64,000 bases of DNA from Bacteroidales bacterium (lineage in GTDB: Bacteria > Bacteroidota > Bacteroidia > Bacteroidales > P3), in the NCBI GenBank assembly GCA_017479385.1, contig JAFVCE010000013.1, positions 152,526 through 216,525 of the forward strand, written 5' to 3'. The position numbers and the translations under genes were made by a program. How positions within the stretch are numbered: the first letter of the stretch is position 1; each line of letters starts with the position of its first letter. Under the pieces are notes generated by a model that saw nothing but the letters and a program-made list of their open reading frames with translations, made no database searches and was not told the DNA's origin. Of the stretch, positions 466-29,702 are shown in pieces.

Positions 466-471
466 AAAAAA

Positions 472-501: not shown

Positions 502-589
502 CAAATTGTAATGATATTGTGAGAGAGCCTGTGGCGAAAGAAAGTGTGGAGTATATTAACCAACATATATAACTGTAAATCATATATTT

Positions 590-1411: not shown

Positions 1412-1413
1412 CT

Positions 1414-3207: not shown

Positions 3208-3247
3208 CATAATCCTTCACCCATCGGGCACCGCTCGCCCGAGGGTG

Positions 3248-3326: not shown

Positions 3327-3340
3327 CTCTGACCCCAAAC

Positions 3341-3401
3341 TAAAAAACTCCAGAAAGTCTGGAGTTTTTTTGTTCGCGGGGCCCGGATAGTCCGGGCTTT
3401 T
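3341..3401. terminator. Tandem hairpin terminators between convergent genes
   Basis: Hairpin one is ACTCCAGA/TCTGGAGT (3347-3354 with 3358-3365) flanked by A and T runs, so it can work on both strands. Hairpin two is GCCCGGA/TCCGGGC (3381-3387 with 3391-3397) followed by TTTT on the plus strand. They separate the DUF4954 gene from the leftward lipoprotein gene. Confidence 0.8.
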
Positions 3402-3415
3402 CGTGGGGGAGTGGG

Positions 3416-5957: not shown

Positions 5958-8900
5958 TCAGAGTTTTACGATTTTTTGAATGGTTACGCCGAGTGGTGAG
6001 TGTACGCGTAGGTAGTAGGCGCCCGAAGCGCGCTGGGTGAGGTCTATGGTGATTGTGGGTTCGCCCTCGGCAAGGTAGTCTTGCAGGCGGCGGCCCTCGG
6101 TAGAGTAGAGTTCGACGTGGGTCATGCCCTCGGCCTCGACGGTGATGGCGTCGACCGTCGGGTTGGGGTAGACGCTGACGCTGAGCTGCTGGGTTGGGGT
6201 AGCAATGGGTGTGTGCGGCTCGTCGTTGTGGGTCACCGTGTCGGTAAAGGTCAGGGTGAGCGTCACAACGCTGTCGCAGCCATAGAGGGTGTGGAGTGTG
6301 TCGGTAAGGGTGATGGTGGCCGAGCCGAGGCTGTCGACCGTGGCTTGGAGCAGCTGGGCCTCGGTGCGCGACACGTGGAAGCCATAGCCCGTGTAGGACT
6401 GGTCGACGTAGGCCGAATCCTCGAAGCGAGTCTCGGCACCGTGGTGTATGCGGATTATGGCTGCCACGGTGCTGTCTACCATACGAGTGCTGTCTATAAC
6501 AGAGTAGGTGGCCACGGTGTTGTTGGTGTAGACCGTACCGTTCCATTCGGCGCTCTCGCAGCCGTCTACAATAATGCTGTCGCCAGTCACTGGCACCAGG
6601 TCGGGTTCGCCAAAGAGCGGATAGCCATAGTTGCGGTACTCGAGGTCGCTGCGCCAGGTGCGGTAGTCGCCACCCTGTTCGTTGTGGTTGCGCACCCAGA
6701 TGTTGAGGGCCTGGGTGAGGTTGCGAGCGCCGTCGACTCTGCGGTCGAGCACCACGTGGTTGGTGCGTCCGCTGAAGGTGGCTGTGTTGTCTATGGTGGC
6801 GTTGAGGCGGCGTGTGCCAACGGCGACCTTGGCGTCGGTAGCAGCGTAGTAGTTGTTGGTAGCTGCGGCGTTAGTGCTGAGCACAGCGCCAACAGCACCC
6901 GACGAGGTCTGGCCGTCGATGTCGCCAAACACATAGTTGTTTTCGATAAGTGTGTTGTCGGCATAGCCCACCACGCCACCAACACGTTGCGAGCGGTGGT
7001 CGGCCACAAAGCGTATGTAGTTGTTGGCCACAACCGAGGGGTTGCCGTCGCGTTTGGCGCGGCGACTGGCCGGGGCTGTGCCGTCGAGATAGCCAGCCGC
7101 GCCGCCTACGTAGAGGCCTTCCATGCGCGAGAGGTTTCCAACGCCGTTGTTCTCGATTCGGGTCGAGGTGCCGTAGCCCACCACGCCGCCACAGAATATG
7201 GCGTCGCCCAAGAACTTGACGTTGCTGGTGTTGCCACTGATGCGTGTTTCGTCGGCTTTGCCCACCATACCGCCACTGGTGTAGTGGGTGGTGAGGAGGC
7301 TGGTGTATTTGTCGTCGAGCGGACCAGCGCCACCGTTGCTCTCGACTTTACAATCTGTGATTTCGGTGCGGTAGGTGTAGGCGGCTATGCCTCCCACAAA
7401 TTGTGAGCCGTGTACCACCTCGGCCTCGAGGGCTATGTTTTTGATTTCGGCCGAGTCGAGGAAGGCAAAGAAGCCAGCATAGTCCATATTGGGCTCGTTG
7501 ACGATGATGTTGCGGATGGTGACGGGCGAAGCTGCGGGGGTGGTAGTGGCCTCGTCGCTGCCAACGCCAATGAAGTGGCCGCGGAAGCGGTGTTGCGTGG
7601 TGCCAACGGGGGTCCAAAGGTGGTTGCGCATATCGTAGCCCTCGGCCTTGTCGTGTAGGTAGACGTTGTTGAAGAAGAACGAGCGGATTTGGGTGTTGTT
7701 ATGTCCGTTGACAACGCTGATGAACCATGCGAGGCCATTTTCATTATATATATGCACGTCGCCGTTATAGGCGGTTACGTAGCCGGCCTTGGTCGAGGGG
7801 GCTTGTGCGGCGTCGTCGACGGTGTAGGACGGCACTGTTGGGCGCGAGGTGTAGTTGTATTCGGTGCTGTAGGTGGCGCCGGCTTTGGCGGTGTCTCTTA
7901 TGGCGTTAACCCAGTAGGAGTCGGGACCGTAGTAGGCAGTGACGCTGGTGCTGCGGGCCGGCACAACGAAGGTGGTTGGGCTGGCATAGTAGGGGTCGAA
8001 GTCCCACATTATGAACTTGTTGTCGCCCAAAGCGCGAGTGGCGAGCTGAATTACCTCGCCTTCGCAGAAGAAGAGGTCTTCGAGTTCGTGGCGGTTTTCG
8101 TCAACCTGCTGGTAGATGTAGTCGTTGTCGGAGCCATCAATTTTGGCCGAGATGGTGCCTTGGGTGCGGTCGGTCCACACCATGGGGGTGATGGTGATGG
8201 CTTTGTAGTAGCGTGTGCCTTTGACGATGGTGCTAACTGTGTTTTCGGCCGAGGGAGAGAGCTTTTCGCCCGAGGCTACAACGTTGTCTTTGCTCGTCCA
8301 GTTGGCCTCGGTAGAGGTGCGTGGGCTTGGGGCTTCATGGTATTCTTCCTTATAAAATCCAGGCTCGATGCTGGTAGAAGTTGACTTGTTGAGGGTTATT
8401 TCGATTTGTTTCTGCAGTTGGCAGCCGGCCACATCGGAGGCGGTTACGGTGTAGTTGAGCACCTTGATACGCGATGTGTGACCCATATCGATATGGCTGG
8501 TGGTGAAAGTGTCGGCAATGGCGTATCGGTAGTTGGTGTAGTCGTGTTTGTCTATGTTGTTGTCCATATTGATGTTGGTGCCGCCCTTGACTTTTGCGGG
8601 ATAGGTGTTGTCGTCGTCGGTCCAATTGTATGTGTAGGGGAAGAAGCCGCCCATGACGCTGTAGACTATGCGCTCGCCGCCAGCGGGGCAGGTGGCTTGG
8701 TCGTCGGGAAGGTATTGCAGCACGTCTGTAGGTGTAATGTCGCTACCGGCAATGAGCGGAGTTGACGACGCCAACTGGTGCTGGAAGGTGGCGCAACGGT
8801 GCAGATACATGGTGTTGGGCTCGATGGCTTCGGTGAAGAGGGTGCGGTAGGCTGGGTTGTCGGGTATGAAGTTTCTGGCATCCATGGCTTTTTGCAGTTT

Positions 8901-11900
8901 GGTGCCAGGGCTGCGTACAATCTGAATGGTATCGCGCAAAATGCCAGTTATGTTGCCAATTTCGCCGGGGAACCATTTGCTGATGCCAATGCGGGTGGTG
9001 GCGGCAAGGTCTTCGTCGACAAGGATGACGTCGCTGATTTGGTCGTCTTTGACAATTTCGTCGCTCGCGCCCTTATAGGTGCGATTGAGTAGAACGTTGG
9101 CTTGAAGCTCGTTTTTCATTGCGTCGGGGTCGAACTGGTAGCGCAGGTTCTCATCATCTTTGTTTTTGTAGAAGTCGAAGTACTTGGTGTTGGCCACCGT
9201 GGTGCCGCAACCTGTTGTGCTGATGGTTTGAGGCATGATGTAGTTGTCGGTGATGAGTATGCGCGACGTTTTGGCCGAAGGCTTGATTTGCAGTATGCCT
9301 TGGTCGATGTGGACTGCGCCGTTTTGCGGATGGGCTTCGTGATTGTTGTCGAAGGCGGCCTCGGTGTTGTGGGTGATGGTAATGTTGTTGATGAGCGTGA
9401 CGGTGGCGCCTTGCGAAATGCAGAATGCGCTGCCAGGCCCCACATAGTCGGTGCCGGTGCGGTAGCCGTTCTGGCCTGGAACGTAGCCGTTGTAGTTGTT
9501 TTCGATATCTACGCCGTTGAGGAGCTCGACATTGGCGTGGTCGGTGACTTGTAGTATGGGTCCGAAGGCAACATTGGTGTCGGCATATTTCTTGCCGTTG
9601 TCGTAGGGGTTGTAGAGCTCTGGACCGATGTTAGTACGACTCCAACCCATGCTTGACCCGTCGAAACTGATGTTCTTGGCAGAGAATTTTGCGTACTTGC
9701 CTTTGACCTCGATGAGGGGGCCTCGATAGACACCACACTCGCCAGGTAGGTCTTTGTGGTGGCCGAAGTAGCGGATGATGGGGAGTGGTGTGTAGTCGGT
9801 GCCGCTAATGGCGAGTTCGGCTATGTTGTCGGTGCCATCGATGACGTATTTATCCATAATGGCAATGACGTCGCCCTCTTGGTAGATACGGCGGATGGCC
9901 GTGTAGAGGTTGTTGACATATTTTGTTGGGCGTTTGCCGATGTCGGGGTCGTTGAAGTCGGTGGCTGGTAGCCAGTCATATTCGTAGCTGTCGTCGTCGC
10001 AGTCGCAGTTGCGTCGGAAGTGGTCGGTTGAGGCTACGTAGATGGTGTCGCCATTTCTGCGTACTTTGACGTTGAGTGTGATTTTGAATTCGGTTAGTTT
10101 TGAGCCGGCTTCGCTGAGCATGGTTAGAGTGGCTTTGCCGACATAGCCTTTCTTGTCGACATCGGGGTAGATGTTTTCGCCGTTGAAGTGGAGCGTGGCT
10201 TCGAGCGCTGAAAGTCCACGGCCGTCGAGTTTGCCGAGATGGAGACCACGGTCGGCGACGTAGCCCTCTTTGTCGACGTGGCTGAGGTCGATAGCCACAG
10301 GGGCGGAGTAGGCTCCAGCGCTAATTTTTTCTGAGGTGCTGAGCGAGGTTTTGCTGTCGCGTGCGGCAGAGAGGAAGTTGACTGGTTCGTCGACATAGAT
10401 GATGGGCCAACCTATGTTGTTCTCGATGTCGCTCGAAATGTTGTCGGTGGGCCATATGGTGAGGCCGAATAGGTTGTTGTCGGCCGAGGCGATGATTACG
10501 TTGGTGTCTTCTACCAAGATGAAGCGGTTCGCGGCTGGAGCCACGTCGGTGGTTTGCAGTTCGCCGCTACCGTCGTCCTGGGTGGGTACCCAAGTTATAT
10601 CTTTGATATATATATCGCTCGATTCGAGTGTGGCAGGGAGTATGATTTTGCGGGTAAAGGTGTTGCGTCGGCCTTCGTTATAGATGGCGAGTACTTCGTC
10701 CTCCATGTCGCGGAACTCTTCGATTATGGTCGAGATGGTTACCACCACGTCTACATTGCCTATATCGACAGGTGTGCGGACGCCCCCTTCGAGCGTATAT
10801 TCTTTGAGCGAGAAGGTTACGGTGCCGAGCATGGTGTTGCTGAAAGTGGAGTCGTAGAGCATGTAGAGGTTCATCTCGGGTTGAGTTTGCGAGTGGTCGG
10901 CTACCATGGCCGAAGCGTAGTTGGCGTTGATGCTGACGTTGGCGTTACCCGAGAGTATGGTTTGGCCGGTGGCTGTGATGGAGCCAGGCAGGGTGGGGTA
11001 GGTGTTGCCAAAGTTTTTGCCCGAGGTGAGCAGTAGGCCGAAAGTGCCATTGGGGTCGTTTGCAATGGCGTCGACATCGACCAGGGCGTTGGCAGGCACG
11101 CCCGTTTCGAGGGGCAGCACGCGCCATTGACCGTTGGCACTGTTGTCGGGGTCGTAGGGATATTGACCATAGTCGTGCCAGTCGCCGTTGGTGGCGTCGT
11201 GGTTGATAACGTTGTTCCAGTTGCCTGGGTCCCAAGTGACGTCGGTGAGAGTGAGGTTATTGTTTTCGGTGCTGAGGGTAATGGCTCCATCGAGCTCGTA
11301 CCAGTGTCCGTCCTCGGTTGGTGGCAAGGTGAGTACGGCCGAAGCCATAGAGAACTTATATTTCTCGCCATTACGCTCGAGGAGGAGTGGCTTGTTGACT
11401 TCGGGGTCCATCTTTGGAGAGCTGGGGTTAGAGTGAGCCAAGACCACGGTGTAGCGTGTGCGGCGACCGTCGCCTACGGCCCAAACGCGATAGCTGCTTT
11501 GGTAGTTGTGGTAGGGCAATTCGCTTTGATTGCAGTTCTCGCCAGAGCAGTTGGTCCAGCTGACTGAAGTGTTGTCTATCGCGCCGCCAACGCCGTTGCC
11601 CAGTTCGTTCTCTGTGTTGCAGTCTGAGAGAAATCCGCCGTCGGTAGTATTACGAGAGTTAGAGCCGTTGGGCACTTTGAAGCGGGCGGTGACCACTGCA
11701 TTGGTGTTGGGTTCGGCTTCGAGGAAAGCAAATCCGCGCACCAAGCCGTATACGCCACCGGTCTTGTCTTGATAAGAGGCGAGTTTGTCGGGATACTGCA
11801 CGTCGATGTTGGTGCCGTTGTTGACCAAGATAGCGGTGTAGCGATGGTCGTCGGTGTTGTCGACATAGCCAAGCTTGGTGCAGATGTCGCGCGTTTCGTC

Positions 11901-14900
11901 GCAGTTGGTGCCGGCGATATTGTAGATGTTTTGGCGAGCGGCTGGCACAAAGCCAGAGTAGCCTGAACCGCTGAAAGCACTCGAGGGGTTGAGCTCGTCT
12001 TCCCAGAAGTTGAGGTAGATGATGTTCGAGGCTTGTTGCTTGAGGCTGGCCACGTTGTAGCCCCAGAAGTTGACGGTGTCGATGCGGTTGATGGTGTAGG
12101 GCTGACTTTCGTGGACCGAAACGGCTTCGTTGGCACCGATATATTGGATGACGGTGTTATGAAGTAGTAGGGCGTCGGCACGTTGGATGGTGGTTATTTT
12201 GCGAGTGGCATCGCAGTCGTTGCCAAGCACACCAAAGTTGCGTATCTCGATGTGGCTCCACACGTCGCCACCATTGGCAGAGGTGCCAGAGCCGATGATG
12301 GCTTTGTTGATATCCATCACGTAGTCGCCCGAACCCACCTGACCTGTATTGTAGCCGTTGCCGTCGATGAGAATCATGTTCTCGCCACCCCAGAAGCCTT
12401 GTTTGTCGAAGTTGGCGTTACCCGAATTTTCGCCCCAGTTGGCACCGCCGTAGATGGAGTAGTCGAGCGAGAGTCGGTTTTTGGCGAGAGCGGGCACGTG
12501 GCCAGCCACTTCGTTGCCGTCGACGATGTGGGTGTAGCCCGGCTTGAATATCGAATAAGCGTTAGCCACGCCGTTGTATGTGTTGGTCCATACTGGCGAG
12601 GTCTGCACAGCATCGTAGCCTACGTTGATGAATACCGAGCCAAAAATGTTGCCGAGGTAGCCTCCACCGTAGACCGGGCTTTGGACATTGCCGCCCGTGA
12701 TGTTGATGATAGATGAGGGACGGAGGGTGGTTTGGTCGTAGGTGGTGTCGCCGCCCGAGATGTATTGGTGGTTGCTGTAGCATTCGCCCATCGACATCTC
12801 GTCGCCATGGCGGTAGCCGTCGCTAACGTTTTGGCTGCCGCCGTATACGGAGCCCACCACAGTGCCACCATCCATGTTGAGGACTTTGAGACCATAGATT
12901 ATTTGGTTTCGTTCGCCTGCGCCACCAGCAAAGATGTTGTTAGCCACTGTGCCACCATGCACGTTGACCAATATGTATGAGTAGTCTTCGGGATTGGTGT
13001 GGGCTGTAGCTAAGGTTTGGTTGGTGTCGGCCACCATGCGGTCTGTTGCAGGGTCGGTAATATAGAAGCGGGTATTGGGGTCTTTCTCGTATGTGAAAGT
13101 GGTACCCAGATTGCCACCACCATATATGTTGTTGGTTACGTAGCCGTCGTTGAAATTTAGTTCTACATACTCGTTGTTTGGGGCGGTGAGGGCTGCTTTC
13201 GATGCGTATACGTCCTTGTTGTAGTAGGTAGCTTCGTGGTCGCCGTTGCCTGCGCCATATATGTTTTTGTAACGGCCGGAGTTGACTTTGACTATGCTTT
13301 TGAAGACGTTGCCCGTGAAGTCGTTGCCACCGAACACGTCGACCACGCAGTAGGTGCTCCCATCGTCTACGCCATTGAGGTTGACGTTGGCTGTGCCTTT
13401 GACGTCAGAACCCCAACAGCCGCCGTACAGTTCGTCGAAGGTTTTGTCCCAAGTGGTGTAGGTGGTGATGTTGGTGTTGTATACGTCGCCACCGCGGCCA
13501 CCCCCATAAACAGAGGCGGTTGCAACGTCGGCAGCATGGTGCAGGTCGACGTGGGTTGCCCCAGTGACGTTGCCGCGACGCGGTTCGTCGAGGTCGCGCC
13601 AGTAACCTTCGCCTCCACCATACACGATGCCAGCGATATAGGCTCCTGTGCTGGTGCTACACTCTTGGTCGTCGAGTATGACGTGCGTGGCACGGCATTG
13701 ACCCATGCGACCACCGCCGTAGACGCTCGACAGGATGTGTCCGCCCCAAATGTTGACGTTGGCCGAGTCGACCACTGGTTCGCCCGTGGTGTTGGTGGCA
13801 AGGCGAGTTGCGTAGTTGGGATTGGTGGCTCGGTGAGCTTCGACGGTGTCGGAATTATCGTGTTTGAAGTTGTATACATCATATTGGCCATAGCCCATTA
13901 TAGGGTAGTCGTAGTATCCGTTCGAGCCGCCATAAATGTGGTGGACATATCCGCCAAAGACGTCGACACGTGTTTGGTCGACAGTGCCGCTGATGTCGTT
14001 GCCACCATATACATAGTTGATGCCATATTTTTCGCCATCACTTGGTGTCGAGGTTTCGACAATTTCGATGTATGCCACACGGGGTTCTTCGCCCGAGGGT
14101 GCTGTTATATCGGCCATATTGCTGCCACCAAAAATACTGCCAAGCACGGTTACAGAACTCGAACTGACTTTTACATGGGTCGAAACGTTAGAGACTGTGG
14201 GCCCACAGGTGGGGGTGACGTCTTTGGTTTTGGTGCCCATATTGCCTGCATTGCAGCCGCCAAACACGTTGTTGACGGTTCCGTTTAGAAGTACGATGTC
14301 TGGCACGCAGTTCTGCATATCGTCGTGGTTGTTGCCGCCGAAGATGGTGCCTACGTAGTTGTTTGTTGAGTTGAATTCGGTGTTGAGCAGTACAGTGACA
14401 TCGGTCGATACGCCGACTCCGTTGCCACCACCGAACACGGTATCGATATATCCGCCGGTGGTGTGTATGTCGATGAAAGCCGATGGCTGGGTGGGACGGT
14501 TGTTGGGGTCTTCCATACCGCAGGCTTCTATGTCTTCGTATTCAGGATGGGTGCCGTCGTAGTTGTAGGCACCGTTGCCGCCGCCATAGACACTGGTAAT
14601 ATGAGGTGTGCCAGTAATGTTGACGTAGGCCGAAAAACGGGCTGTCCATGAGCCGTCCTCCTCTTTGTTGAGTGCAGTACCATTTGAGGCCTTGAATTGG
14701 CCTGGGTCTGAGTCGTCGACCGAGGTGTATGCACCAAAATTGGCAACTTTACCAATGCGGTCGTTGCCGGCAAAGAGTGCACCTTCGATAGTGGCGTCGC
14801 CGAAGATGTTGAGGTACGACAAACCGTAGATTTTTGCCATGTTGCCGCCTCCGAATGCGTTGCCCTTGATTGTGCCGCCTTTCATAGAGAAATGGACAGA

Positions 14901-17816: not shown

Positions 17817-17868
17817 ACGTTTGACTCACTTGTAGTTAAGCCAATCGCGCAAAGTTTGGTTCAAACTG

Positions 17869-17876
17869 CAAAGTTA
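17869..17876 (-). promoter_or_regulatory. -7 element for leftward giant operon
   Basis: CAAAGTTA on the plus strand reads TAACTTTG on the minus strand, a canonical Bacteroidota -7 box, about 55-75 bases before the giant-gene start. No TTTG at the usual spacing is visible, so the promoter may be weak or activator-dependent. Confidence 0.55.
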
Positions 17877-17955
17877 CACTTTTTTTTATATTTGCGAGTT
17901 TTTATATATTAAAAAATAAAATTTGTATTTCGGGCCGTAATTCGTAAAGTTTTTG

Positions 17956-17963
17956 TATCTTTG
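17956..17963 (+). promoter_or_regulatory. -7 element for rightward small ORF and giant gene
   Basis: TATCTTTG is a canonical -7 box, about 80 bases from the leftward one, facing right. The nearest TTTG upstream (17922-17925) is 30 bases away, longer than the usual 19-21, so the -33 contact is poor. Confidence 0.5.
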
Positions 17964-18001
17964 CAAAGTCGCACACCATGCTGTTGCGACACGTATTGTT
18001 A

Positions 18002-18022
18002 TGGCTATCAATACCATAGCCA
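18002..18022 (+). other. Leader hairpin upstream of rightward giant operon
   Basis: TGGCTAT (18002-18008) and ATAGCCA (18016-18022) form a perfect 7-bp stem around a 7-base loop. It would sit in the 5' leader of the rightward transcript, 21 bases before the small ORF, or could be a dyad operator for a regulator. Confidence 0.4.
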
Positions 18023-18043
18023 CTGATTAAGTGTACGAAAACG

Positions 18044-18292
18044 ATGACTAAAATGACTCATATCGAACCAATCGACCGGTACTCCTCCATTTTCGGGGAA
18101 GTTTTGCTATGCCACCGAGTTCTCTCGTCGCTCTGTTTGGTAACGGTAGTTTTGGTGCTTATCGCTCCCACAGTGGGTTATGCCTGCAACGAATGGTCCG
18201 GCTTTACCAATGGCGACAAAAGCAGAGTCGACATCTATGGTGGCAACACGGCTATCACCACAGGTGGCTATGTTGCAATGTTAGCAGAATGA
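18044..18292 (+). CDS. Small exported peptide with YGGN motif (82 residues)
   Basis: A short gene 31 bases upstream of the rightward giant gene. Residues about 22-46 (VLSSLCLVTVVLVLIAPTVG) form a signal peptide or membrane segment. The remaining 36 residues hold one Cys directly after the hydrophobic part (YACNEW) and the segment RVDIYGGNTAITTGGYVAML, which carries the same Y-G-G-N motif as the giant proteins. The Cys context is not a good lipobox. ATG at 18053 is an alternative start. It may be a real co-transcribed mini-protein with one repeat unit, or the remnant of an older 5' end of the giant gene; the giant gene has its own complete signal peptide. Confidence 0.5.
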   Translation: MTKMTHIEPIDRYSSIFGEVLLCHRVLSSLCLVTVVLVLIAPTVGYACNEWSGFTNGDKSRVDIYGGNTAITTGGYVAMLAE

Positions 18293-18323
18293 ATAAGATA
18301 CAAAAGAACGCTATAAGACTACT

Positions 18324-21300
18324 ATGATAAATCTTCGCAATACAGCAATAACAAACAGGAAAACAGCGCTCCACCTGCTGGGATTGTGCCTCGTGGCAAC
18401 AATCCTATGCCTTGACACCCAGGTTCAAGCCCAGGTGCGAATAAAGGGCAACATATATGGCGGTGGCAAACTGGGCAATGTGAGCGAAAGTACCTCGGTC
18501 ACCCTCAAGCAGTCGGCAGCCATCGTCTATGGTAGCGTCTATGGCGGTGGCCGCGGCGCAGAGGAAGACGTAGATATAGCCCTTGTTGGTGGCAGTACCC
18601 AAGTGCTTATGAGCGACGGCCATGTGATGCACAGCGTCTACGGCGGTGGCGAATTGGGCTCCATTGTTGGCAACACTTTAGTGACCCTCAGCGGTGGCAA
18701 GGTGGGCGTCGATGAACCAGAGTTGGATGACGGCTATGTTTTCGGTGGCGGCAAGGGCTCAATGGCCGACCGCTACCTGGCCACAGTGCGCGGCAACACC
18801 CACGTGGTGATGAGCGGTGGCTATGTGCACAACACCCTCTTCGGCGGTGGCGAGGTGGCCTCGGTAGGCATATTCGAGGTGGCCGACGCTGCCGACGCTG
18901 AGAACGACATTGTGAAGGGCGAACCCATCAGTTGCACCTCAGGCGGCAAAACCCTCGTGGAAATAAGCGGTGGACAAATAGGCTTACCAGCTGCCACGTT
19001 GCGCAACGACATAGGCTATGTCTTTGGTGCCAGCATGGGTGTCTACACTCAGCCCGACGCCGAGCACACAGCCGAAAACATCAATCTGACCAGCCGTGAA
19101 AATGGCTTAAAAAACGCCATCTATGGCTATGTGGATAGTGCCGAAGTGCGCATCCGCGCCAATGCCTTCATCGTTGGCGCCGTATGGGCTGGCAGCGAAA
19201 ATGGCCAGGTGTTGAAAAACAGCGGAGTGCACGTCAGCGGTGGCCAGATTGGCTGCGGTTTGGGCGAGACAGAACGCTACGATCGCAAACTGTGGCTTGA
19301 AGCCGAGGCAGCCGTGCGTGCTAACGACCCCTCGCGCATCAACGCCATTGCTGATAAGATGCCCGAGTGCGAACACTGGCCTTATGGCCGCGACACCATC
19401 ATTGCCGACAATGCGACCAAACATTATCTGCCATACGACATATATGCCTATGCTGACGGCGCTACCGACGCCTCTGGCAACCCCGGCGATGGCCATACCT
19501 TTTTTGGCAATGTTTTTGCCGGTGGCTCTGGCATTTACCCCTACCGCATATCGGGCAAGACCCACGACGGCCTGAACGACTCGGTGTGGAGCGAGTGGTA
19601 TAGCTTCCAGGGCCGAGTGCGCGGCGACACGTACCTTATTATCAGCGATAGCGCCCACATCCTCACCTCTGCCTATGGTGGCTGCGAGATTTCTGACGTG
19701 ATGGGAGACTGCTATGTCAGTATGACTGGCGGAACCATCGGCCTGCCACGTTCTTTCGAAACTATCGTCGCCCGTCCTGTCTCCTGCAATCTCTACGGGG
19801 CAGGAAAAGGCGACCAGCGAACCCATTTTAACCAGTACACCAACGTGCGCGATGTGCACCTCTCGGTTACCGGCGGCACAATCTTCGGCTCCGTGTTCGG
19901 TGGTGGCGAAGATGGCCACATTCTGCGCGACTCATATGTGTCTATCGGCGGCGACGCATGGATAGGCACATTCGGCACTTCATATTTCGATGGTAACATC
20001 TTCGGTGGTGGCCGCGGCTTCTCGGGCGAAGCCCTTACCGCTGGCAGTGTCGGCGGCAACGTCAGTATCGATGTCACCCCCAGCGCAGGCAATGAGGGCT
20101 ACCCCCATATGTTGGGCTCTATCTATGGCGGCGGCCGCCTGGCCTCGATTGGCACCTACTTCGTGCAACCCGATAACCCCAAGTACGGCGTGCTGCAAGA
20201 GGGCGACTCCGACCACGGTAACATAACCATAACCATTAGCGGTGGCACCATTGGCAACGACCTCGAATATGTCTATGCCCCATCGGGCAAACTCAATACA
20301 GGCAATCTGGCCCGAACCAAGTTCTACGACAACAACACCCTCGAACACACCATGGGTGGCAATGTCTATGGCGGCTCCATGGGCCGCCTCACCGGTTTGG
20401 TCGATACCACCAACTGGCTCTGGCCGTGGTTAGCATGGGCACGCTCTACCACCATCACTGTCACTGGCGGTACTATTAAGAGCAACGTCTATGGCGGTGG
20501 CGAGCTCGGCGCGCTCGAAAAAGCCAGTGCCATCACCATCAGCGGTTCTACCGTTATTGGCACAGAGGTCAAAGATGAGGGGGGCAACACCATTTATACC
20601 TATGGTAGCGTCTATGGCGGAGGTTACGGCACCATTCTCGAAGAATACGAAGAGGCTGCCTACTCGCATTGGGCTCCGCCTATTGCCATTGCCGGACGCG
20701 TCGAAGGCAACACCAGCGTTACAATCACCGGTGGTCAGGTCTTACACAGCGTTTATGGCGGTGGCGAGGTGGCCTCGGTCGGCATTCATGCGCACGGTCT
20801 TCCAAGCGATAACCCGCCATTCATCGACTGGCACAACGACTTCAAAGTCCAACCCGACGGCTACGAAATGAATTTTGACAACACAGACCGTCGCTACTTC
20901 TACTACGCTGTCGATGATGACGACAACGATATGTCTAAACCCCTCAGCCGCGACTACATCAAAGTCACTGGCGGCGAGTCGGTTGTTACCATCGGGGGCA
21001 CTGCCCGCATTGGGCGCCGTCTCTCCCCGACCCAAATCGAAGATATGTATGCCGACGCCGACCACACACGCTACAACCTGCTGCAGTCGGAAGGTATGGT
21101 CTATGGCGCTGGCAAGGGTGTGGCTGGCCTCAACTATAGCCACTACACCTATGTCGGCTCTGCCGAGGTCAACGTTCTCGGTCAAGCCTCCATTCTCGGC
21201 TCCGTTTTCGGCGGTGGCGAGAACGGCCACGTGGTGGGTAACACAGGGGTTACCATCGGGTCAACATCGGTACAAGGTGCTACCGACCCCAACCCCGGAG

Positions 21301-24300
21301 CCCCCGTCGACTACCCCACCATTGGTCGCAACGTGTCCCCATCCGAATATTTCTCCGAGTACTTCTCGTCGGGCAGCGGCGACGAGCTCTATTTTGGCAA
21401 CGTCTATGGCGGTGGGCGCGGTATCGACATCTCTGCCTCGACCAAGCACCATAGCCTCACAGCTGGCCGTGTCGAGGGCAACACCAAGGTTACCCTACTC
21501 AGTGGCCGCATAACCCACAACGTCTATGGCGGAGGGTCGCTGGCCTCGGTCGGTATCGACCGCCACCCCTATTCGGGCAAGTCCGAAGTCGTCGTGGGCG
21601 ATGCCTCCTATGCCGACGGCTCTGCCCACATCGTCATTGGCCTCGACACCATTACCGATAACAACGAGGCAGCACTCTTTGGCAACACCGCAGACTACTA
21701 CAAGGGCCAGTCTATCAGCTCCAGTGTCAAGGTGCCAGACCTGACCTACGTCCAGTTCGAAGCGAGCGACCCCACACTCACCGATAAGTATCGTCGCTAC
21801 TACTTCCGCCGTTTTGCTGGTCGCAACGAGGGTCGAGTCTATGGCGGCGGCCGAGGCAACTCGGGCGTGCCCGACGACGATGCTTCGCGCGAGTTCACCG
21901 AGATGGCTTTCGTTTCTAACGCCTTTGTCACCATCAACAACGGTGCCAAAGTGCGCGGCTCGGTCTTCGGCGGAGGCGAGAATGGCCACGTGCGCCAAAA
22001 CACCGACGTCAAAATACTCGGTGGCCGCATTGGTGTGCCCCTCTGGGCACCCTACACCTTGCCCTCAACCACCGACGATGGCACCACCATCTGCGACCCG
22101 TCGGCCAGTGGCGCCAAACTCATGACCGACGCGCAATACTATGCCATCGACTCTACCTACGACCACTGGGAGAGCGACAAAGGTGTTGGCCCTACCATCT
22201 ATCGTGGTAATGTCTATGGTGGTGGCCGTGGTGTCAGCCCTGTCCGTATCACCAAAGGTGGCGGCGAGGACGAGGTTACAGTAAGCCTCACGGCCGGGCG
22301 TGTCTATAGCAATGCCACCGTCAACATCAGCGGCAAGGCTCGTATCTACCACCACGTCTATGGTGGTGGTTCGCTGGCCTCGGTTGGCGATACCGTGTCC
22401 GACATCATCACCGCCGACCTCACCACCGACCTCCGCAACGAGTATGCCACAAAGTACCCCAACTACACCCCCGAACAGTTCACCAAAGGCGACGTCTTCG
22501 ACATACTCGGTTACCGTATATGCAACCCTAATGTCGACAACCCCATCAAGGTCTATGGCTACGATGGCAACTGGCTCGACAAATACGTCATGCCCACCGA
22601 CGCAGAGTGGGACGCCATCAAGGGTGACCTCGACGGCAAAAACTACATTCTCGAAGCTGCTACCGATATGGGCGAGAGCTTCGACGAAGCCGAACCCGAC
22701 TTTGCTAAGAAAACTCACCTCAACCTTACGCGCGTACAGCACGACTACAACGTTGGCAGCGCGCTCTATGGTACGGGCATTGTCACCATCACCGTCAATG
22801 GTGGCATCATCGGCACCAACGGCATAAACGAAGGCCGTATCTACGGCTCTGGCCGCGGTATTGCTGGCGACGCAACCAACCTCTACACCAAGATGGCCTT
22901 TACCCACAACGTCAACGTCAATATCGAAGATGGCGCCGACATTCGTGGTTGTGTCTTCGGCGGAGGCGCCAACGGCCACGTAACCCAAAACACCAACGTC
23001 GTTATGACTGGTGGCGTTGTGGGAGCACACCTCACTTTCGAGGAGCGCCGAATCGACGAAACTGGTGCTCCCATCCACCGCATCTACCGTGGCAACATCT
23101 ACGGAGGAGGCCGTGGTGTCGACTCCATTACCAACCACAAACACCTTAGCCAAACAGCCGGACGCGTCTATGGTAACACTCGTGTCGAGGTTACTGGTGG
23201 CTTGGTGCGCCACTCTATCTATGGTGGCGGTTCGTTGGCCTCGGTGGGAACATTCGAACTCTACGATGCCGCTGGCGACGACTCTGACCTCAAGCACATC
23301 TATTACCGCAATTCGGGTGTGGCCACTGTCATAGTGGGTGGCCAAGCTCAAGTGGGCCCCAGTCGTGCCGACGTAGCACCTACCAACTTCACCGACCTCA
23401 CCGTTGCCGAGCAAGAGGCTTTCAAGGCCCACCTAAGCACTGCCGACATCGCTACCAAGAAAACCGAACGCGCCACTCCCAGCGACGCCGCCCTCACCGA
23501 CGCCGAGTACCTCAAACTCTATATCGATACCTGCTTCAAATATATAGGTACCAACGAGGGCATGGTCTTTGGGTCGGGCCGCGGTGTGGCTGCCTATGGT
23601 AAGGATGTCGACTACGACCGCGACTACGCCGAGGCCGCTTTCACACGCCGCACCATTGTCGTGGTCAAGGACGACGCCGAGATTGTAGGCTCTGTTTTCG
23701 GTGGTGGCGAAAATGGCCACGTTAAAGGAAATACTCATGTCTATATTGCTGGTGGCATAGTGGGTGGCATACCGCTCCACGGTTGCACCTCGATACATCA
23801 CGATTTGGGCTCGCACAGCTGTAGCTACACTATCAGCGACCCCAAGTCAGAGTACGACGGCCTATCGATAGCTCTGCGCCACGACGCAGACGACCTCGAG
23901 AAGGACGAGAGCGAACTGCGCGAAGACAGCCACGGTGTGGGCCGCATAATTTGGCGTGGCAACGTCTATGGCGGAGGCCGTGGCGTTGACCACGACCAAG
24001 AAGTCTCTATCGATGCTGGTTTCTCTTCGTCGGCAGGTCGTATCTATGGCAATGCTCATGTTACAGTGATTGACGGCAAAATCTACCACTCGGTCTATGG
24101 TGGCGGCTCGGTGGCCACAGTCGGCACTTTCGAAGAAAATACCGACGGCGAACCACAAGTAATGAAGCGCCAGTACAACATTGGCAGCAAGTCTTTCGCT
24201 CGCTCCGACTATCACTTCACATCTGGCGACGACAAACAGATGGTGCTCAACAAAAGTGCCATCACCATTGAGGACGATGGCGACGCTACCGAAACCGTAG

Positions 24301-27300
24301 ACGGCATATACTACTACACCACAGGCCTCATCACCACAACCATCAAGGGTGGCGAAGTGGGCATTACCGGCCGCAACGAGGGCTCTGTTTTTGGCGCAGG
24401 TCGAGGCATTGCCGGCACTGCCACCGCGCAGGTTACCCACCTCGCTTTCTGCAACGCCACACAAGTCAACATCGAGGGCGGCACCATAGCCGGCTCGGTC
24501 TTTGGCGGTGGTGCCGACGGCCACGTGCTTACCGATACCAAGGTCAATGTATCGGGTGGCATTGTTGGCACCAAACTCACACTGCTCGAGCGACAAACCG
24601 TCGATGGCGGTGGCGAGCACATCTACCGTGGCAACGTCTACGGCGGAGGCCGTGGTGTCGACCCTGTCATCAATGGCAGTGGCCTCAGCCAAACGGCCGG
24701 ACGCGTCTATGGCAACTCCGAGGTTGTGGTTACCGGTGGCACCATTCGCCACGGCGTTTATGGTGGCGGCTCGCTGGCCTCGGTCGGCACCTTCGACATA
24801 GTCAACTACGGCACCGGCTGCGACGACGAGTATATGGAAGGTAAATACAAAGACGTGTATCCGGCCGAAAAGAGTTTTGGCTGGATAGATATGCCACTCT
24901 ATTTGACCCACATCTACCACCATCGCCCCAGCATCGGCGAGGCCAACGGCAAGCCTACGGGCAAAGCCACCGTCACCATCAGCGGTGGCCGCATTGGCCC
25001 ATTGGCCGAAGACCTCGAAGAGTTTACCGACGACGATGCTAAGCTCTTTGTCTATACCGACGGCGACAATAATATGCACTACTATACCACCACCGCCGAG
25101 CTCTATGCTGCTGCCTCGACCGACGGCCACGGCATAGGCTCGCTGCAAGACTTTATCGACGCCAGTTACAAGTGCCTTGGCGAGAACGAAGGCTCCGTCT
25201 ACGGTTCGGGCCGCGGTGTGGCCTATACCAAAGGCGAGAACGAGGTCTACGCCGAAATGGCTTTCGTCAAGGAGACCGAGGTCAACATAGAGGATGGCGC
25301 ATTCGTGGTTGGTTCGGTCTTTGGAGGTGGCGAGAACGGACACGTCCGTTTCGATACACACGTCAATATCAAGGGCGGCACCATTGGCGGCATACCCATG
25401 CACCGCAGTGGTGTGGCCTTCGACCCCTCGGCCACTTCGTTCCAAGCCTACGCGGGCGTTGCGGCCGAGGCTATTACCCCTTTCCGCACAGGCGGTTCTA
25501 ACAAAACCACCCTCAAATTCAACAACCAAGCCAGCCTCGACGAGGACGAGTTGCGCGAGAATTCGACTGGTACTGGCCGCACCATCTATCGTGGCAACGT
25601 CTATGGCGGAGGCCGCGGCGTTGACCACTCGGCCATAGAACTCGAAGAGAACTACTACTCCTCGTCGGCCGGTCGCGTCTATGGCAACGCAAATATCAAT
25701 ATCAGCGGCGGAAAGGTCTACCACCACGTCTATGGTGGTGGTTCGCTGGCCTCGGTGGGCAATTACGACTACCACGAGACGGGCATTAACGCTGGTTTCC
25801 CCGCAAAGCTGCGCGACACTAAGCAAACTTTCGAAATAAATGGCCTTACATATAGTATTAACGACATCAAGGGTGGCACCGTCGACCCCGCCGACACCAT
25901 TCAACACTCGGTCGGCAACATCCGCATAGTAATGACCGGCGGCCAGTTGGGCTTTACCGGCATCAACGAAGGCCGCATCTATGGTGCTGGCCGAGGCATC
26001 GCTGGTGCCCGTACCAACGAGGTTACCCACTTGGCCTACTGCAATTCGACCGAGGTCTATGTGGGTTGCGAACCCGACGCAGCAGGTGCTACAACCTTGC
26101 CCGACGACTCCAAGATTAGCGTCGCCACTACCGGCACGCCCGACATTCGCGGCAATGTGTTTGGCGGTGGCGACAACGGTCACGTGCTGGCCGATACGCG
26201 TGTGGTCGTAGCCCGCGGCACCATAGGCGTGCCGCTTAGCACCACGTCCGAAACAACCTTCCCCTACAAAGACGACCTCACTGGCGAAGCCATCACTCTG
26301 CCCTATGGCGAGGCCTATACCGACGACAACGGAATCGACGCCACCACCACCTTCCGCGGCAACGTCTATGGCGGCGGCCGTGGCGTTAACCCCATCGGGT
26401 CGACGGGCAACATGAGCTTCACGGCCGGCCACGTCTATGGCAACACCCACGTCTATGTTGTGGGTGGAACCATCAACCACAACATCTATGGTGGCGGCTC
26501 GCTGGCCACGGTTGGCTTACGACTCTACAAAGAGAGTGCTTCGGCCACCGAATACACGTCGTACGCTCCCGTACTCAAAGAGGGAACGACCGACGAATAC
26601 TACGACGAAGAGGGCTCCTATAAAGACAACACTACGGGCATGGCCACCATCTATGTGGGTGGCGACGCCGTGGTGGGTACCAGTGGCCTCAATAATGGCC
26701 GTGTGTTTGGCGCTGGCCGCGGTGTGGCCAGCAACGACTTCGACTCGCGTACCTATATCCGTGCCGCCGAGGTTACCATTGCCGACAACGCCCAAGTGCG
26801 CGGCTCGGTCTTTGGTGGCGGCGAGAACGGCCACTTACAGCAAGATGCCCATGTAACCATTGCTGGCAACGCCATTGTAGGCTTGGCCGTAACCACCTCC
26901 GCACCCTTTGGCAACAAGGAGTTTATTGGCAACGTCTACGGCGCTGGCCGCGGTGTGAGCCAGACCGAGGCGGGCAACATACCCTACCACGCTGGTTATG
27001 TGCGTGGCAACACGGTGGTCAACATCGATGGCGGCACCATCTACCACAATGTATATGGTGGCGGCTCGATGGCTCTGGTGGGCGACTATGGCCTGCTGGG
27101 TGACGACGACTACTGGCACGGCCTCAACTTGGTCGATGGTGCCCCCGACGGCACGCTGAAAGACGATTGTTGGCAGCTCCATGGCGGTACGGCCACAGTC
27201 AACGTGCGCTCGTCGGTGGGCTCGCCCAGCAACACGGCTGGCTATGGTGGCAACGTCTACGGCTCTTGTCGCGGCCAAGCCAACAACCCCTCTGTCCAAA

Positions 27301-29702
27301 CACAGGACCTCTATGGCGCTATGGCCTACGCTGTGCGCACCGTGGTCAATATCGACGCCCCTACCGGCACGGTCTACGGCTCGGTTTATGGCGGCGGACA
27401 GAACGGACACGTCGACTTTGGTGGCACCACCGTCTACGTCAAGAACGGCCACATTGCTGGCAATGTCTTCGGCGGCGGACAGGGCAACATCAGCTCGCCT
27501 ACCGCCGGTATTGTCGACGGCCCAACCCAAGTGCATATTGGTCTCGAGTCGCAGTTGGCCAAAGACAGCGCCAACACCGTGCTCATCGACGGTAGTGTTT
27601 TTGCCGGCAACGACACCTGGAGCTCGCCTCTGGGCGATATGCGCGTCGACATTTGGCGCACTGCTCATACTGCAAACAACGAATATCCTTTCGACGTGCC
27701 TGCAACCGAAGCCGAAATCGACGCTTTCGAGGCTTCGCCACTCACCAAGCCAGGCACCACCGACTCGCGCTATGCGCTCCACTCGGTCTATGGCGGTGGC
27801 AACTTGGCCAACGTCCTCACCGGCGACGCTGCTACCGACGACTATGCCGGTAATGCCGACAACGTGTTCGATAAACGCTACATCAACCAGCGCCTCGAAC
27901 CCGCAAAGGGCACATGGCCGGTATCGACCAGGCGCAAGTCGATAGTCTATGTTCACGACTGCCACGAAAACACAATCAAGTACATCTATGGCGGTGGCCG
28001 CGCGGCCTCGAGCCGCGAAACCGAGGTAGTGGTCGAGGGCGGCCTCGTCTACCAGCTCTATGGCGGTGGCAACGGCAGCTCTAATGTCGAGGATGGCGGC
28101 GTGGCTTCGAACCCAGGCGCCGACGTGGCAGGCAACGTCACGGTCTTTGTGCGCAGCGGTGTTGTTCACCAAGTCTTTGGCGGCAGCAACAGCAAGGGCA
28201 ACGTAGCAGGCACTATCAACGTCAATGTGAGCAAAACCAAAGACTGCAACGAGTCTATTACCGAAGTCTATGGTGGCGGCAACGAGGCCGAAATTGAGGC
28301 CGACCTCGAGGTCAACGTCAGCTGTGGCACAAGTTTCACCACTCTCTATGGTGGCTCTAACAAAGCCCCAATCAAGGGCAACGTCACCCTCAACGTCTAT
28401 GGTGGCACGTTCGACAACGTCTTCGGCGGCTCGAACCAAGCCGACATCGACGGCGACGTCACCCTCAACATCTTTGGCGGCAACATCGTCAACGCCTTTG
28501 GTGGCAACAACACCGCGGGCGAAATTACCGGCCAAATCATCGTCAACGTCGACCTCGACGACCCCGACCAGTGCGGCGACTTGAGGCTCGACAACGTCTA
28601 TGGCGGTGGCAACCAGGCCGATTACAACCCCACCAAGGCTGGCGTCAGCGTTTCGCCGCTGGTCAACATCAAGCATACCGAAATAACCAACAACGTCTTT
28701 GGTGGCGGCTTAGAGGCCAAGGTCGAGGCTTCGCCCAAGGTGCGCATCGGTGGCTTCGACGAACCCGTCAAGCTGCTGGGCAACGTCTTCGGTGGCGGCA
28801 GCCAGGGCGATGTGGGCACTCCGAGCAAAGAGTTCACCTCCACTGTCGTTATGCGTAGTGGTGAGGTGGTGGGCAACATCTTTGGCGGCGGCCTTGCCGC
28901 GCCGGTCCATGGCGACACACGCGTCGACGTGGTTGGCATCTCGAAGGTCGACGGCAATGTGTATGGCGGTGGCTACGAAGGCACCGTCACCGGCACCCCC
29001 GATGTCCACATCGGCTATACGCCCACGCTCACCGCAGGTGCGCCGCTAATCAACATCTCCTATAAAGGCAAGGTGACGCTCACCTCAACCACCGAGGGGG
29101 CAAAGATATACTACACCATCAACGGCCCGGGCAACCCCACTACTGCCGACAAACTCTATGAGGGCGCGTTCGACTGCGACGAGCTCGACGAGGTGCAGGC
29201 CATTGCCGTCAAAGACGGAATGGAAAATTCCGACGTCATTGTCCGTATTGTCGAGAAGTTGCCCGCCCCGACGGTCAGCGTCAACCCCTGCGGCGAGGTC
29301 CGTTTTGGCATCAAGACCGGCTCTAAAGTCTACTACACCACCGATGGCAGCGACCCCACCATCTCGGCCACCGCCGTCGAATATACCGACGAAACGGTGC
29401 TCATACCCGGCCCCGAAGTGACCACGGTCAAAGTCTGCGCCGAACTGCTCAACCACCTGCCGTCCAGCATTACTACCGTGACGCGCCTCGAACCTCCGAC
29501 CTACACCATCGGCAGCGACGGCACCACCACCCTCACTTCGCTCGGCGCCGTCTACTACACCACCGACGGCAGCGACCCCAGAACTTCGGCCACCAAGAAG
29601 TACTACACCTGCCCATTCCACCTCGACGTCGGCCAGACACTTCGCGCTGTGTCAACCTCAAAGACAAGCCTCGTCTCTCTCGAACTGTCGGTTACCAGAT
29701 AA
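18324..29702 (+). CDS. Giant (3792-residue) exported YGGG-repeat protein without visible T9SS sorting domain
   Basis: A signal peptide (LLGLCLVATILCL, cleavage near QVQAQ) is followed directly by repeats from residue 44 (NIYGGGKLGN). More than 60 [VI]-[YF]-G-G-G-like units extend to about residue 3550. In the middle they run in a fixed order: SVFGGGENGH, NVYGGGRGVD, VYGGGSLASVG, then IYGAGRGIAG, repeated about nine times with variable inserts. Near the end a shorter-period run appears (LYGGSNKAP, VFGGSNQAD). The last 220 residues hold three chitobiase-C-terminal-like domains (IYYTINGPGNP, VYYTTDGSDPT, VYYTTDGSDPR). The protein stops at LELSVTR with no sorting domain, lipid anchor or membrane helix. 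It diverges from the leftward T9SS giant with the same motif. Likely a very long beta-solenoid surface or matrix protein; how it would reach or stay on the surface is unknown. Confidence 0.85.
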   Translation: MINLRNTAITNRKTALHLLGLCLVATILCLDTQVQAQVRIKGNIYGGGKLGNVSESTSVTLKQSAAIVYGSVYGGGRGAEEDVDIALVGGSTQVLMSDGHVMHSVYGGGELGSIVGNTLVTLSGGKVGVDEPELDDGYVFGGGKGSMADRYLATVRGNTHVVMSGGYVHNTLFGGGEVASVGIFEVADAADAENDIVKGEPISCTSGGKTLVEISGGQIGLPAATLRNDIGYVFGASMGVYTQPDAEHTAENINLTSRENGLKNAIYGYVDSAEVRIRANAFIVGAVWAGSENGQVLKNSGVHVSGGQIGCGLGETERYDRKLWLEAEAAVRANDPSRINAIADKMPECEHWPYGRDTIIADNATKHYLPYDIYAYADGATDASGNPGDGHTFFGNVFAGGSGIYPYRISGKTHDGLNDSVWSEWYSFQGRVRGDTYLIISDSAHILTSAYGGCEISDVMGDCYVSMTGGTIGLPRSFETIVARPVSCNLYGAGKGDQRTHFNQYTNVRDVHLSVTGGTIFGSVFGGGEDGHILRDSYVSIGGDAWIGTFGTSYFDGNIFGGGRGFSGEALTAGSVGGNVSIDVTPSAGNEGYPHMLGSIYGGGRLASIGTYFVQPDNPKYGVLQEGDSDHGNITITISGGTIGNDLEYVYAPSGKLNTGNLARTKFYDNNTLEHTMGGNVYGGSMGRLTGLVDTTNWLWPWLAWARSTTITVTGGTIKSNVYGGGELGALEKASAITISGSTVIGTEVKDEGGNTIYTYGSVYGGGYGTILEEYEEAAYSHWAPPIAIAGRVEGNTSVTITGGQVLHSVYGGGEVASVGIHAHGLPSDNPPFIDWHNDFKVQPDGYEMNFDNTDRRYFYYAVDDDDNDMSKPLSRDYIKVTGGESVVTIGGTARIGRRLSPTQIEDMYADADHTRYNLLQSEGMVYGAGKGVAGLNYSHYTYVGSAEVNVLGQASILGSVFGGGENGHVVGNTGVTIGSTSVQGATDPNPGAPVDYPTIGRNVSPSEYFSEYFSSGSGDELYFGNVYGGGRGIDISASTKHHSLTAGRVEGNTKVTLLSGRITHNVYGGGSLASVGIDRHPYSGKSEVVVGDASYADGSAHIVIGLDTITDNNEAALFGNTADYYKGQSISSSVKVPDLTYVQFEASDPTLTDKYRRYYFRRFAGRNEGRVYGGGRGNSGVPDDDASREFTEMAFVSNAFVTINNGAKVRGSVFGGGENGHVRQNTDVKILGGRIGVPLWAPYTLPSTTDDGTTICDPSASGAKLMTDAQYYAIDSTYDHWESDKGVGPTIYRGNVYGGGRGVSPVRITKGGGEDEVTVSLTAGRVYSNATVNISGKARIYHHVYGGGSLASVGDTVSDIITADLTTDLRNEYATKYPNYTPEQFTKGDVFDILGYRICNPNVDNPIKVYGYDGNWLDKYVMPTDAEWDAIKGDLDGKNYILEAATDMGESFDEAEPDFAKKTHLNLTRVQHDYNVGSALYGTGIVTITVNGGIIGTNGINEGRIYGSGRGIAGDATNLYTKMAFTHNVNVNIEDGADIRGCVFGGGANGHVTQNTNVVMTGGVVGAHLTFEERRIDETGAPIHRIYRGNIYGGGRGVDSITNHKHLSQTAGRVYGNTRVEVTGGLVRHSIYGGGSLASVGTFELYDAAGDDSDLKHIYYRNSGVATVIVGGQAQVGPSRADVAPTNFTDLTVAEQEAFKAHLSTADIATKKTERATPSDAALTDAEYLKLYIDTCFKYIGTNEGMVFGSGRGVAAYGKDVDYDRDYAEAAFTRRTIVVVKDDAEIVGSVFGGGENGHVKGNTHVYIAGGIVGGIPLHGCTSIHHDLGSHSCSYTISDPKSEYDGLSIALRHDADDLEKDESELREDSHGVGRIIWRGNVYGGGRGVDHDQEVSIDAGFSSSAGRIYGNAHVTVIDGKIYHSVYGGGSVATVGTFEENTDGEPQVMKRQYNIGSKSFARSDYHFTSGDDKQMVLNKSAITIEDDGDATETVDGIYYYTTGLITTTIKGGEVGITGRNEGSVFGAGRGIAGTATAQVTHLAFCNATQVNIEGGTIAGSVFGGGADGHVLTDTKVNVSGGIVGTKLTLLERQTVDGGGEHIYRGNVYGGGRGVDPVINGSGLSQTAGRVYGNSEVVVTGGTIRHGVYGGGSLASVGTFDIVNYGTGCDDEYMEGKYKDVYPAEKSFGWIDMPLYLTHIYHHRPSIGEANGKPTGKATVTISGGRIGPLAEDLEEFTDDDAKLFVYTDGDNNMHYYTTTAELYAAASTDGHGIGSLQDFIDASYKCLGENEGSVYGSGRGVAYTKGENEVYAEMAFVKETEVNIEDGAFVVGSVFGGGENGHVRFDTHVNIKGGTIGGIPMHRSGVAFDPSATSFQAYAGVAAEAITPFRTGGSNKTTLKFNNQASLDEDELRENSTGTGRTIYRGNVYGGGRGVDHSAIELEENYYSSSAGRVYGNANINISGGKVYHHVYGGGSLASVGNYDYHETGINAGFPAKLRDTKQTFEINGLTYSINDIKGGTVDPADTIQHSVGNIRIVMTGGQLGFTGINEGRIYGAGRGIAGARTNEVTHLAYCNSTEVYVGCEPDAAGATTLPDDSKISVATTGTPDIRGNVFGGGDNGHVLADTRVVVARGTIGVPLSTTSETTFPYKDDLTGEAITLPYGEAYTDDNGIDATTTFRGNVYGGGRGVNPIGSTGNMSFTAGHVYGNTHVYVVGGTINHNIYGGGSLATVGLRLYKESASATEYTSYAPVLKEGTTDEYYDEEGSYKDNTTGMATIYVGGDAVVGTSGLNNGRVFGAGRGVASNDFDSRTYIRAAEVTIADNAQVRGSVFGGGENGHLQQDAHVTIAGNAIVGLAVTTSAPFGNKEFIGNVYGAGRGVSQTEAGNIPYHAGYVRGNTVVNIDGGTIYHNVYGGGSMALVGDYGLLGDDDYWHGLNLVDGAPDGTLKDDCWQLHGGTATVNVRSSVGSPSNTAGYGGNVYGSCRGQANNPSVQTQDLYGAMAYAVRTVVNIDAPTGTVYGSVYGGGQNGHVDFGGTTVYVKNGHIAGNVFGGGQGNISSPTAGIVDGPTQVHIGLESQLAKDSANTVLIDGSVFAGNDTWSSPLGDMRVDIWRTAHTANNEYPFDVPATEAEIDAFEASPLTKPGTTDSRYALHSVYGGGNLANVLTGDAATDDYAGNADNVFDKRYINQRLEPAKGTWPVSTRRKSIVYVHDCHENTIKYIYGGGRAASSRETEVVVEGGLVYQLYGGGNGSSNVEDGGVASNPGADVAGNVTVFVRSGVVHQVFGGSNSKGNVAGTINVNVSKTKDCNESITEVYGGGNEAEIEADLEVNVSCGTSFTTLYGGSNKAPIKGNVTLNVYGGTFDNVFGGSNQADIDGDVTLNIFGGNIVNAFGGNNTAGEITGQIIVNVDLDDPDQCGDLRLDNVYGGGNQADYNPTKAGVSVSPLVNIKHTEITNNVFGGGLEAKVEASPKVRIGGFDEPVKLLGNVFGGGSQGDVGTPSKEFTSTVVMRSGEVVGNIFGGGLAAPVHGDTRVDVVGISKVDGNVYGGGYEGTVTGTPDVHIGYTPTLTAGAPLINISYKGKVTLTSTTEGAKIYYTINGPGNPTTADKLYEGAFDCDELDEVQAIAVKDGMENSDVIVRIVEKLPAPTVSVNPCGEVRFGIKTGSKVYYTTDGSDPTISATAVEYTDETVLIPGPEVTTVKVCAELLNHLPSSITTVTRLEPPTYTIGSDGTTTLTSLGAVYYTTDGSDPRTSATKKYYTCPFHLDVGQTLRAVSTSKTSLVSLELSVTR
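20900..27480 (+). repeat. Super-module repeats inside rightward giant gene
   Basis: Units of roughly 560-970 bases recur. The VYGGGSLASVG coding segment falls near 21.54, 22.38, 23.24, 24.11, 24.78, 25.75, 26.50 and 27.07 kb, with related GEVASVG/GRLASIG forms at 18.86, 20.14 and 20.77 kb. Short DNA stretches such as ggcaacgtctatggcgg are reused almost unchanged between units, while the inserts between them differ in length and sequence. Confidence 0.8.

Follow-up and report, generated by a model that had tools for sequence, protein, structure and literature searches.

In a stretch of 64,000 nucleotides from a Bacteroidales bacterium (assembly GCA_017479385.1, contig JAFVCE010000013.1, positions 152,526 to 216,525 of the forward strand; hereafter the window), a giant gene named here A encodes a protein with short YGGG repeats and a sorting domain of the type IX secretion system (T9SS), and a lipoprotein gene, L, follows it. 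The conserved unit is this pair, a giant adhesin-like A and a lipoprotein L with a predicted pilin-like half, and not the divergent pair of A with a second giant repeat gene, B, which an earlier note made from the letters of this DNA had proposed as a system. We suggest that a surface adhesin module has A and L at its core and is akin to the fimbrial loci of type V (Mfa1-type). The whole would be comparable to the T9SS adhesin Mfa5, with B and smaller proteins carrying the same repeat as B (named X) as accessory solenoids that may dock by their ends. To this reading, in which docking and function are the conjectural parts, we give a probability of about 0.45.

Protein A and its lipoprotein neighbour

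The two divergent open reading frames (ORFs), of 3952 and 3792 codons, were verified at their coordinates; both are open and they lie 507 bp apart. The likely start of A is the ATG at residue 7 (position 17798), and signal-peptide-like N ends were recognized by eye on the translations of both A and B. Strict [YF]GG[GNSC] motifs occur 27 times in A, against a mean of 1.0 and a maximum of 5 in 200 shuffles, and 54 times in B (mean 2.3, maximum 7, also 200 shuffles). With a looser motif we found 33 copies in A, within residues 440-1800, and 69 in B, which agrees with the "about 33" and "more than 60" units counted in the earlier note. The commonest short spacing in A is 25-27 residues. In B, 34 of the 68 spacings are of 28-45 residues, and a larger repeat of 190-321 amino acids (aa) is found between residues 1025 and 2869. 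The two proteins align over their repeats (BLASTP E 4e-11), and no Pfam or NCBIfam family matched the repeats of either.

As had been noticed earlier, only one of the two proteins has a sorting domain. The C end of A matches PF18962 and TIGR04183 at residues 3882-3951 (32 bits, above both cut-offs), and with this Por_Secre_tail domain above the curated cut-off A is a probable type A T9SS cargo, while Pfam and NCBIfam gave no sorting domain in B up to E = 1, and B is not classed as type A cargo. The window genome contains SprA_N (545 bits, within a 2396-aa frame) and 35 sorting-domain matches, 33 of them above cut-off, and export of A by the T9SS is therefore plausible.

Searches of A against Pfam, NCBIfam and PDB sequences returned nothing besides this domain. 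Alignments were drawn from 19 of 47 A proteins (A2, n = 15; A3, n = 18; A4, n = 14), leaving out regions that span separate pieces, short ones and two much longer ones. In the 15 rows of A2 (residues 46-1160), Pfam gave one fn3 match, one weak PKD-like match and no lectin family, and the von Willebrand factor A domain was absent both from these rows and from the scan of the whole of A. The structure model based on the 15 sequences covers residues 46-1160 (mean predicted local distance difference test score, pLDDT, 75) and predicts a trefoil-like head, an immunoglobulin (Ig)-like domain and a beta-helix. In the model, the head has the trefoil fold and appears lectin-like, so it may bind sugars. 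The modelled helix resembles the passengers of Hap and Hbp in a VIA-align comparison; families absent from that comparison are not thereby excluded. Of the two long beta-solenoids expected by the earlier note, the model thus favours one over the folded part of A's repeats, and B is probably beta-helical by the homology of its repeats. A would display a lectin-like head on a long beta-helix stalk, projecting from the cell. Beta-helices could also belong to lyase-like enzymes acting on plant or host polysaccharides, which we find very improbable for these proteins.

The next gene downstream of A, on its own strand, is L in 46 of the 46 loci where this is testable. It was detected beside A by phmmer in 43 of 47 genomes, by tblastn in G138 and G114, and in G032 through locus L124, taken as the same contig; in G025, the 47th, the contig stops inside A. 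Two L genes had been overlooked in the phmmer neighbourhood search, because the longest ORF chosen was antisense. The constant companion of A is this lipoprotein, which lies outside the coordinates of the earlier note. In the window, 214 bp separate the stop of A from the likely ATG of L, or 37 bp from the start of the longer L ORF.

From the 43 L proteins detected by phmmer, alignments of 22 (A5) and 21 (A7) were made. The lipobox Cys20 is invariant across the 22 aligned rows, where no Mfa_like or FimA sequence model was matched. The model based on these 22 sequences (mean pLDDT 85.5) combines an N half similar to 3t2l, a pilin-like fold, with a beta-helix in the C half. A phmmer search of PDB with a fimbrillin-like neighbour gave only chance-level matches; profile A6 against PDB gave rows for 4k4k and 3ufi alongside unrelated rows at chance level. 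We propose that L would act on A as Mfa3, and perhaps Mfa2, act on Mfa5, either anchoring it or receiving it. Several L proteins in A5 have a short basic C tail (e.g. KRRR, KGRRR), which the L of the window does not have.

Distribution, layout and relation to fimbrial loci

With the repeat profile, 69 of the 120 genus genomes were positive, that of the window among them, as were 6 of 294 other genomes of the order and none of 394 other genomes of the phylum. One further genome of the order (G060) had a weak match in one search (E 1.7e-4) that was not repeated in a later one. A profile of the non-repeat region of A found 47 of the 120 genus genomes, with one match each and frames of 2272-7804 aa without stops. 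These genomes are drafts, many of them less than 90% complete, so the counts of absence are soft. Matches of the A-tail profile at A loci are not independent, as it was trained on those same tails. Among 61 named loci matched by the C-terminal region of A, 28 have titles naming ruminant, rumen or horse.

Around the 47 A genes, we recorded the nearest gene with at least 10 motifs. A repeat-rich gene upstream of A is co-directional in 18 loci and opposed in 2, it is absent within at least 4 kb in 17, and 10 loci could not be judged. The refutation that the earlier note had named, relatives in which the two are never neighbours, did not come about. The divergent layout itself, which that note took as the system, is found in only 2 of the 37 assessable loci, the window and G048; in the latter, the gene between A and the opposed repeat gene is presumably a tryptophanase. 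In a tree of 46 of the 47 A proteins (after a length filter), the two opposed loci form separate tips, both within a 29-member group of which 17 are co-directional. Because of this, the divergent arrangement of the window looks derived, a local and rare rearrangement.

The 507-bp gap between A and B is clean and has promoter-like sites on both strands: TAnnTTTG, a Bacteroides -7 consensus, occurs at 17887, 17956 and 18147 on the plus strand and at 17876 on the minus strand. A B-like gene in another genome, G327, is also directed away from the giant gene, with a lipoprotein run between them. These points would suit a functional system made of the divergent pair under one control region. However, the pair recurs only as the separate tips mentioned above, and what the gap sequence matches elsewhere is short, 21 identical bp at best (E 0.002), so we consider this the least probable of all the explanations discussed here; as a conserved system, the shared control region is rejected by the layout counts. 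The small ORF of 82 codons inside the gap, whose co-occurrence the earlier note proposed to test, had no clear relative: against 239 sequences it found only itself, plus weak matches of a repeat-like kind with E values no better than 0.06. It holds half a repeat, RVDIYGGN, and is perhaps a remnant.

In five of the six genomes outside the genus, a giant repeat gene is found behind a same-strand run of lipoprotein-like genes, whose signals were judged by eye. We scanned 19 members of these runs (5 of 8 in G327, 4 of 6 in G230, 5 of 7 in G330, 3 of 4 in G412 and 2 of 3 in G227). Mfa_like_1 was above cut-off in the runs of G327 and G227, and DUF3575 in those of G327, G330 and G230. DUF5119 was above cut-off in G327 and below it in G330, and the three scanned members of G412 had no Pfam match. 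With DUF3575 and DUF5119 taken by us as markers of fimbrial loci, four of the five genomes with such runs carry Pfam marks of type V fimbriae. One paper names genes with DUF3575 in Bacteroides without settling their role (PMC10434189).

The giants behind these runs match the A profile mainly over the repeats, and the A-tail profile did not match their tails. For the tail of the G327 giant, TIGR04183 scored 20 bits, short of its cut-off of 23. Smaller repeat genes stand behind the giant, on the same strand, in G230, G330 and G412; in G327, the B-like gene is past the lipoprotein run and oppositely directed. In the sixth genome, G320, a single relative combines the middle region of A with a T9SS-type tail, and the neighbour table showed no L-like gene for it.

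These loci bear on the main alternative, in which A would stand alone as a T9SS adhesin, or as a surface protein that binds carbohydrates, unlinked to fimbriae. L would then be simply a lipoprotein of the surface encoded in the same operon, and the fimbrial neighbours in other families a coincidence. The window genome has no Mfa_like_1, no fimbrial Pfam family appeared among the 10 window proteins scanned, and the lectin-like head modelled on A would serve such a protein as well. On the other hand, the predicted pilin-like half of L, its unbroken adjacency to A and the lipoprotein-like runs with fimbrial marks outside the genus argue for a link. We think a free-standing A possible, though clearly less likely than a module related to type V fimbriae.

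The nearest described case is Mfa5 of Porphyromonas gingivalis. This large substrate of the T9SS sits at the tip of the type V fimbriae built on Mfa1 and is bound by Mfa3 and Mfa2, an association with fimbrillin-type lipoproteins such as we suggest for A (PMC7835359, PMC5954841). Mfa5 has von Willebrand and Ig-like domains and runs at 120-150 kDa. By contrast, A has about 3950 residues with a predicted trefoil-like head and YGGG beta-helix, and we recognized no fimbrial shaft gene beside it. A does not have the von Willebrand domain, and we do not assign it as a member.

Other systems are more distant. The Hap and Hbp autotransporter passengers share with the modelled A a long beta-helix, whereas A has a T9SS sorting domain, a different repeat and no match to an autotransporter barrel. 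Curli, a bacterial amyloid, was compared by description and resembles the proposed fibre in the general idea of stacking beta-solenoids; it has small subunits and its own export system. In Apilactobacillus kunkeei, genes lying one after another encode Giant1-5, extracellular proteins 3000-8000 residues long, of which four have beta-solenoid domains. Also compared by description, they differ in being Gram-positive and in having the solenoid at the N-end only, followed by long alpha-helical repeats (PMC12863079). Open-licence PMC papers, searched for the YGGG repeat or for very large T9SS solenoid proteins of Bacteroidota, gave nothing on this family.

Open ends of the X and B proteins

All 20 complete X proteins in the neighbourhoods of A have the stop 17-20 residues past the last motif. 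The window genome itself has two X genes on another contig, one of them interrupted by the contig end. Among 112 complete ORFs with at least 3 motifs, 41 stop 17-23 residues past the last one; by a recount of the list, 50 of the 112 are A-type or giant with long C-terminal parts and 62 are of the X/B type, hence 41 of 62. The terminal unit has the consensus GNVYGGGNxAxVTGNTxVxIgd. With a leave-genome-out matrix, it took the top rank among the units of its protein in 36 of the 41 cases against 3.8 expected, including proteins of G230, G327, G330 and G412. In the other five it ranked second four times (both X of the window genome among them) and last once (G230 at 6328).

A similar opening is seen at the beginning of B proteins. 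Of 17 complete N ends, judged by eye, 15 have the first unit about 8-14 residues past the signal-peptide-like cut. The exceptions are G021, with about 23 residues, and G144, where a part of several hundred residues precedes the array. At the other end, 5 of 20 B proteins finish 19-22 residues past the last motif; the others, that of the window included, carry a tail. A solenoid beginning and ending mid-array would be suited to stacking, and X and B may indeed stack in this way.

Since these uncapped ends are conserved, we propose end-to-end docking. B and X would be accessory beta-helix rods, many of them open-ended, that make the fibre longer or decorate it by docking to one another or to A. 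A bolder version is a YGGG fibre-building family, one not described in the open-licence papers searched. In it, open-ended segments of X and B stack, the last coil (GNVYGGGNxAxVTGNTxVxI plus stop) is a plug or a sorting signal replacing the T9SS domain, X and B reach the surface bound to A, and the composite fibre has a lectin tip and a pilin-type anchor. We regard this version as doubtful; the last coil may act as a signal.

The number and length of these genes vary (0-2 X upstream of A in the sequence covered, B from 2011 to about 7000 aa), and in the window genome X is on another contig. It could be that X and B are alternative or spare modules, a source of variation by recombination between solenoid genes, instead of parts of one fibre. 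The conservation of the terminal unit and of the stop position across families suggests a working end, which speaks against spare modules, and we consider them improbable. A shared N-terminal domain of A and X was also considered and rejected, since a profile of the N-domain of A matched nothing in X or B.

With the adhesin module proposed here, a repeat family with no Pfam or NCBIfam match gains a boundary, a likely fold and a constant partner, and uncultured bacteria would be seen to combine T9SS cargo with lipoproteins like those of type V fimbriae and with beta-helices of very great length. If the ends bind, this would be a new way of building a bacterial surface fibre and perhaps of crossing the outer membrane for proteins without a sorting domain.

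Pfam scans among the neighbours of A in the relatives covered L and six X proteins. Three of these X have a match in the Peptidase_M26_N region and three have CHB_HEX_C_1 or Fn3_assoc, one having both and one none.

Features of the window and minor observations

Table. Coordinates of the features discussed; positions are those of the window, except for X proteins, which are given in their own loci.
Feature	Position	Strand	Basis or remark
Gene L, lipoprotein, 775 aa from likely ATG, lipobox Cys20	3416..5743	-	phmmer and alignment
L residues 316-775, predicted right-handed beta-helix with GLUG-like repeats	3419..4798	-	model
L residues 23-300, predicted pilin-like (fimbrillin-type) fold	4844..5677	-	model
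Gene A, giant protein with YGGG solenoid and T9SS sorting domain	5958..17816	-	ORF of 3952 aa
A residues 3882-3950, T9SS type A sorting domain	5967..6173	-	32 bits
A residues 3340-3870, conserved profile A4 region	6207..7799	-	profile
A residues 1780-2440, A-specific profile A3 region	10497..12479	-	profile
A residues ~446-1810, YGGG-repeat region	12387..16481	-	predicted beta-helix as far as modelled (residue 1160)
A residues ~266-429, predicted Ig-like domain	16530..17021	-	model
A residues ~46-255, predicted beta-trefoil-like head	17052..17681	-	model
A-B intergenic region, 507 bp	17817..18323		TAnnTTTG sites, three plus and one minus
82-codon ORF, signal-peptide-like N end	18044..18292	+	no clear relative
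Gene B, giant YGGG-repeat protein without sorting domain	18324..29702	+	3792 aa
B residues ~42-3570, repeat array, ~8 residues past signal-peptide-like cut site	18447..29033	+	motif listing
B residues 3544-3566, final YGGG unit, similar to the terminal type	28953..29021	+	by eye against the consensus
B C-terminal tail, three CHB_HEX_C_1 / Fn3_assoc stretches	29034..29699	+	Pfam
X protein with the Pfam matches named above	L062:3890-8995	+	Pfam
X protein with the Pfam matches named above	L058:4478-7897	+	Pfam
X protein with the Pfam matches named above	L064:2601-7646	+	Pfam
X protein with the Pfam matches named above	L068:14998-20000	+	Pfam
X protein with the Pfam matches named above	L212:567-5132	-	Pfam

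Beyond B, on the minus strand at 29948-32305, a single frame joins a sigma-54 factor RpoN (AID, core-binding and DNA-binding domains), a signal-peptide-like hydrophobic stretch and an M23 peptidase. The product would be a sigma factor tethered to the membrane and carrying a peptidase in the periplasm. No fused match was found in 12 genomes of other genera, nor anything on such a fusion in the open-licence PMC literature. Within the genus, 14 of 18 relatives have the fusion near full length in one frame. G014 matches in two parts of a single 759-aa frame. In G005 there are two separate frames, in G013 an RpoN frame of 500 aa, and in G003 RpoN was not matched.

Elsewhere in the window genome there is another giant frame with a T9SS sorting domain, of 4002 aa (G000:C17:25403-25627, minus strand; loci L214 and L215).
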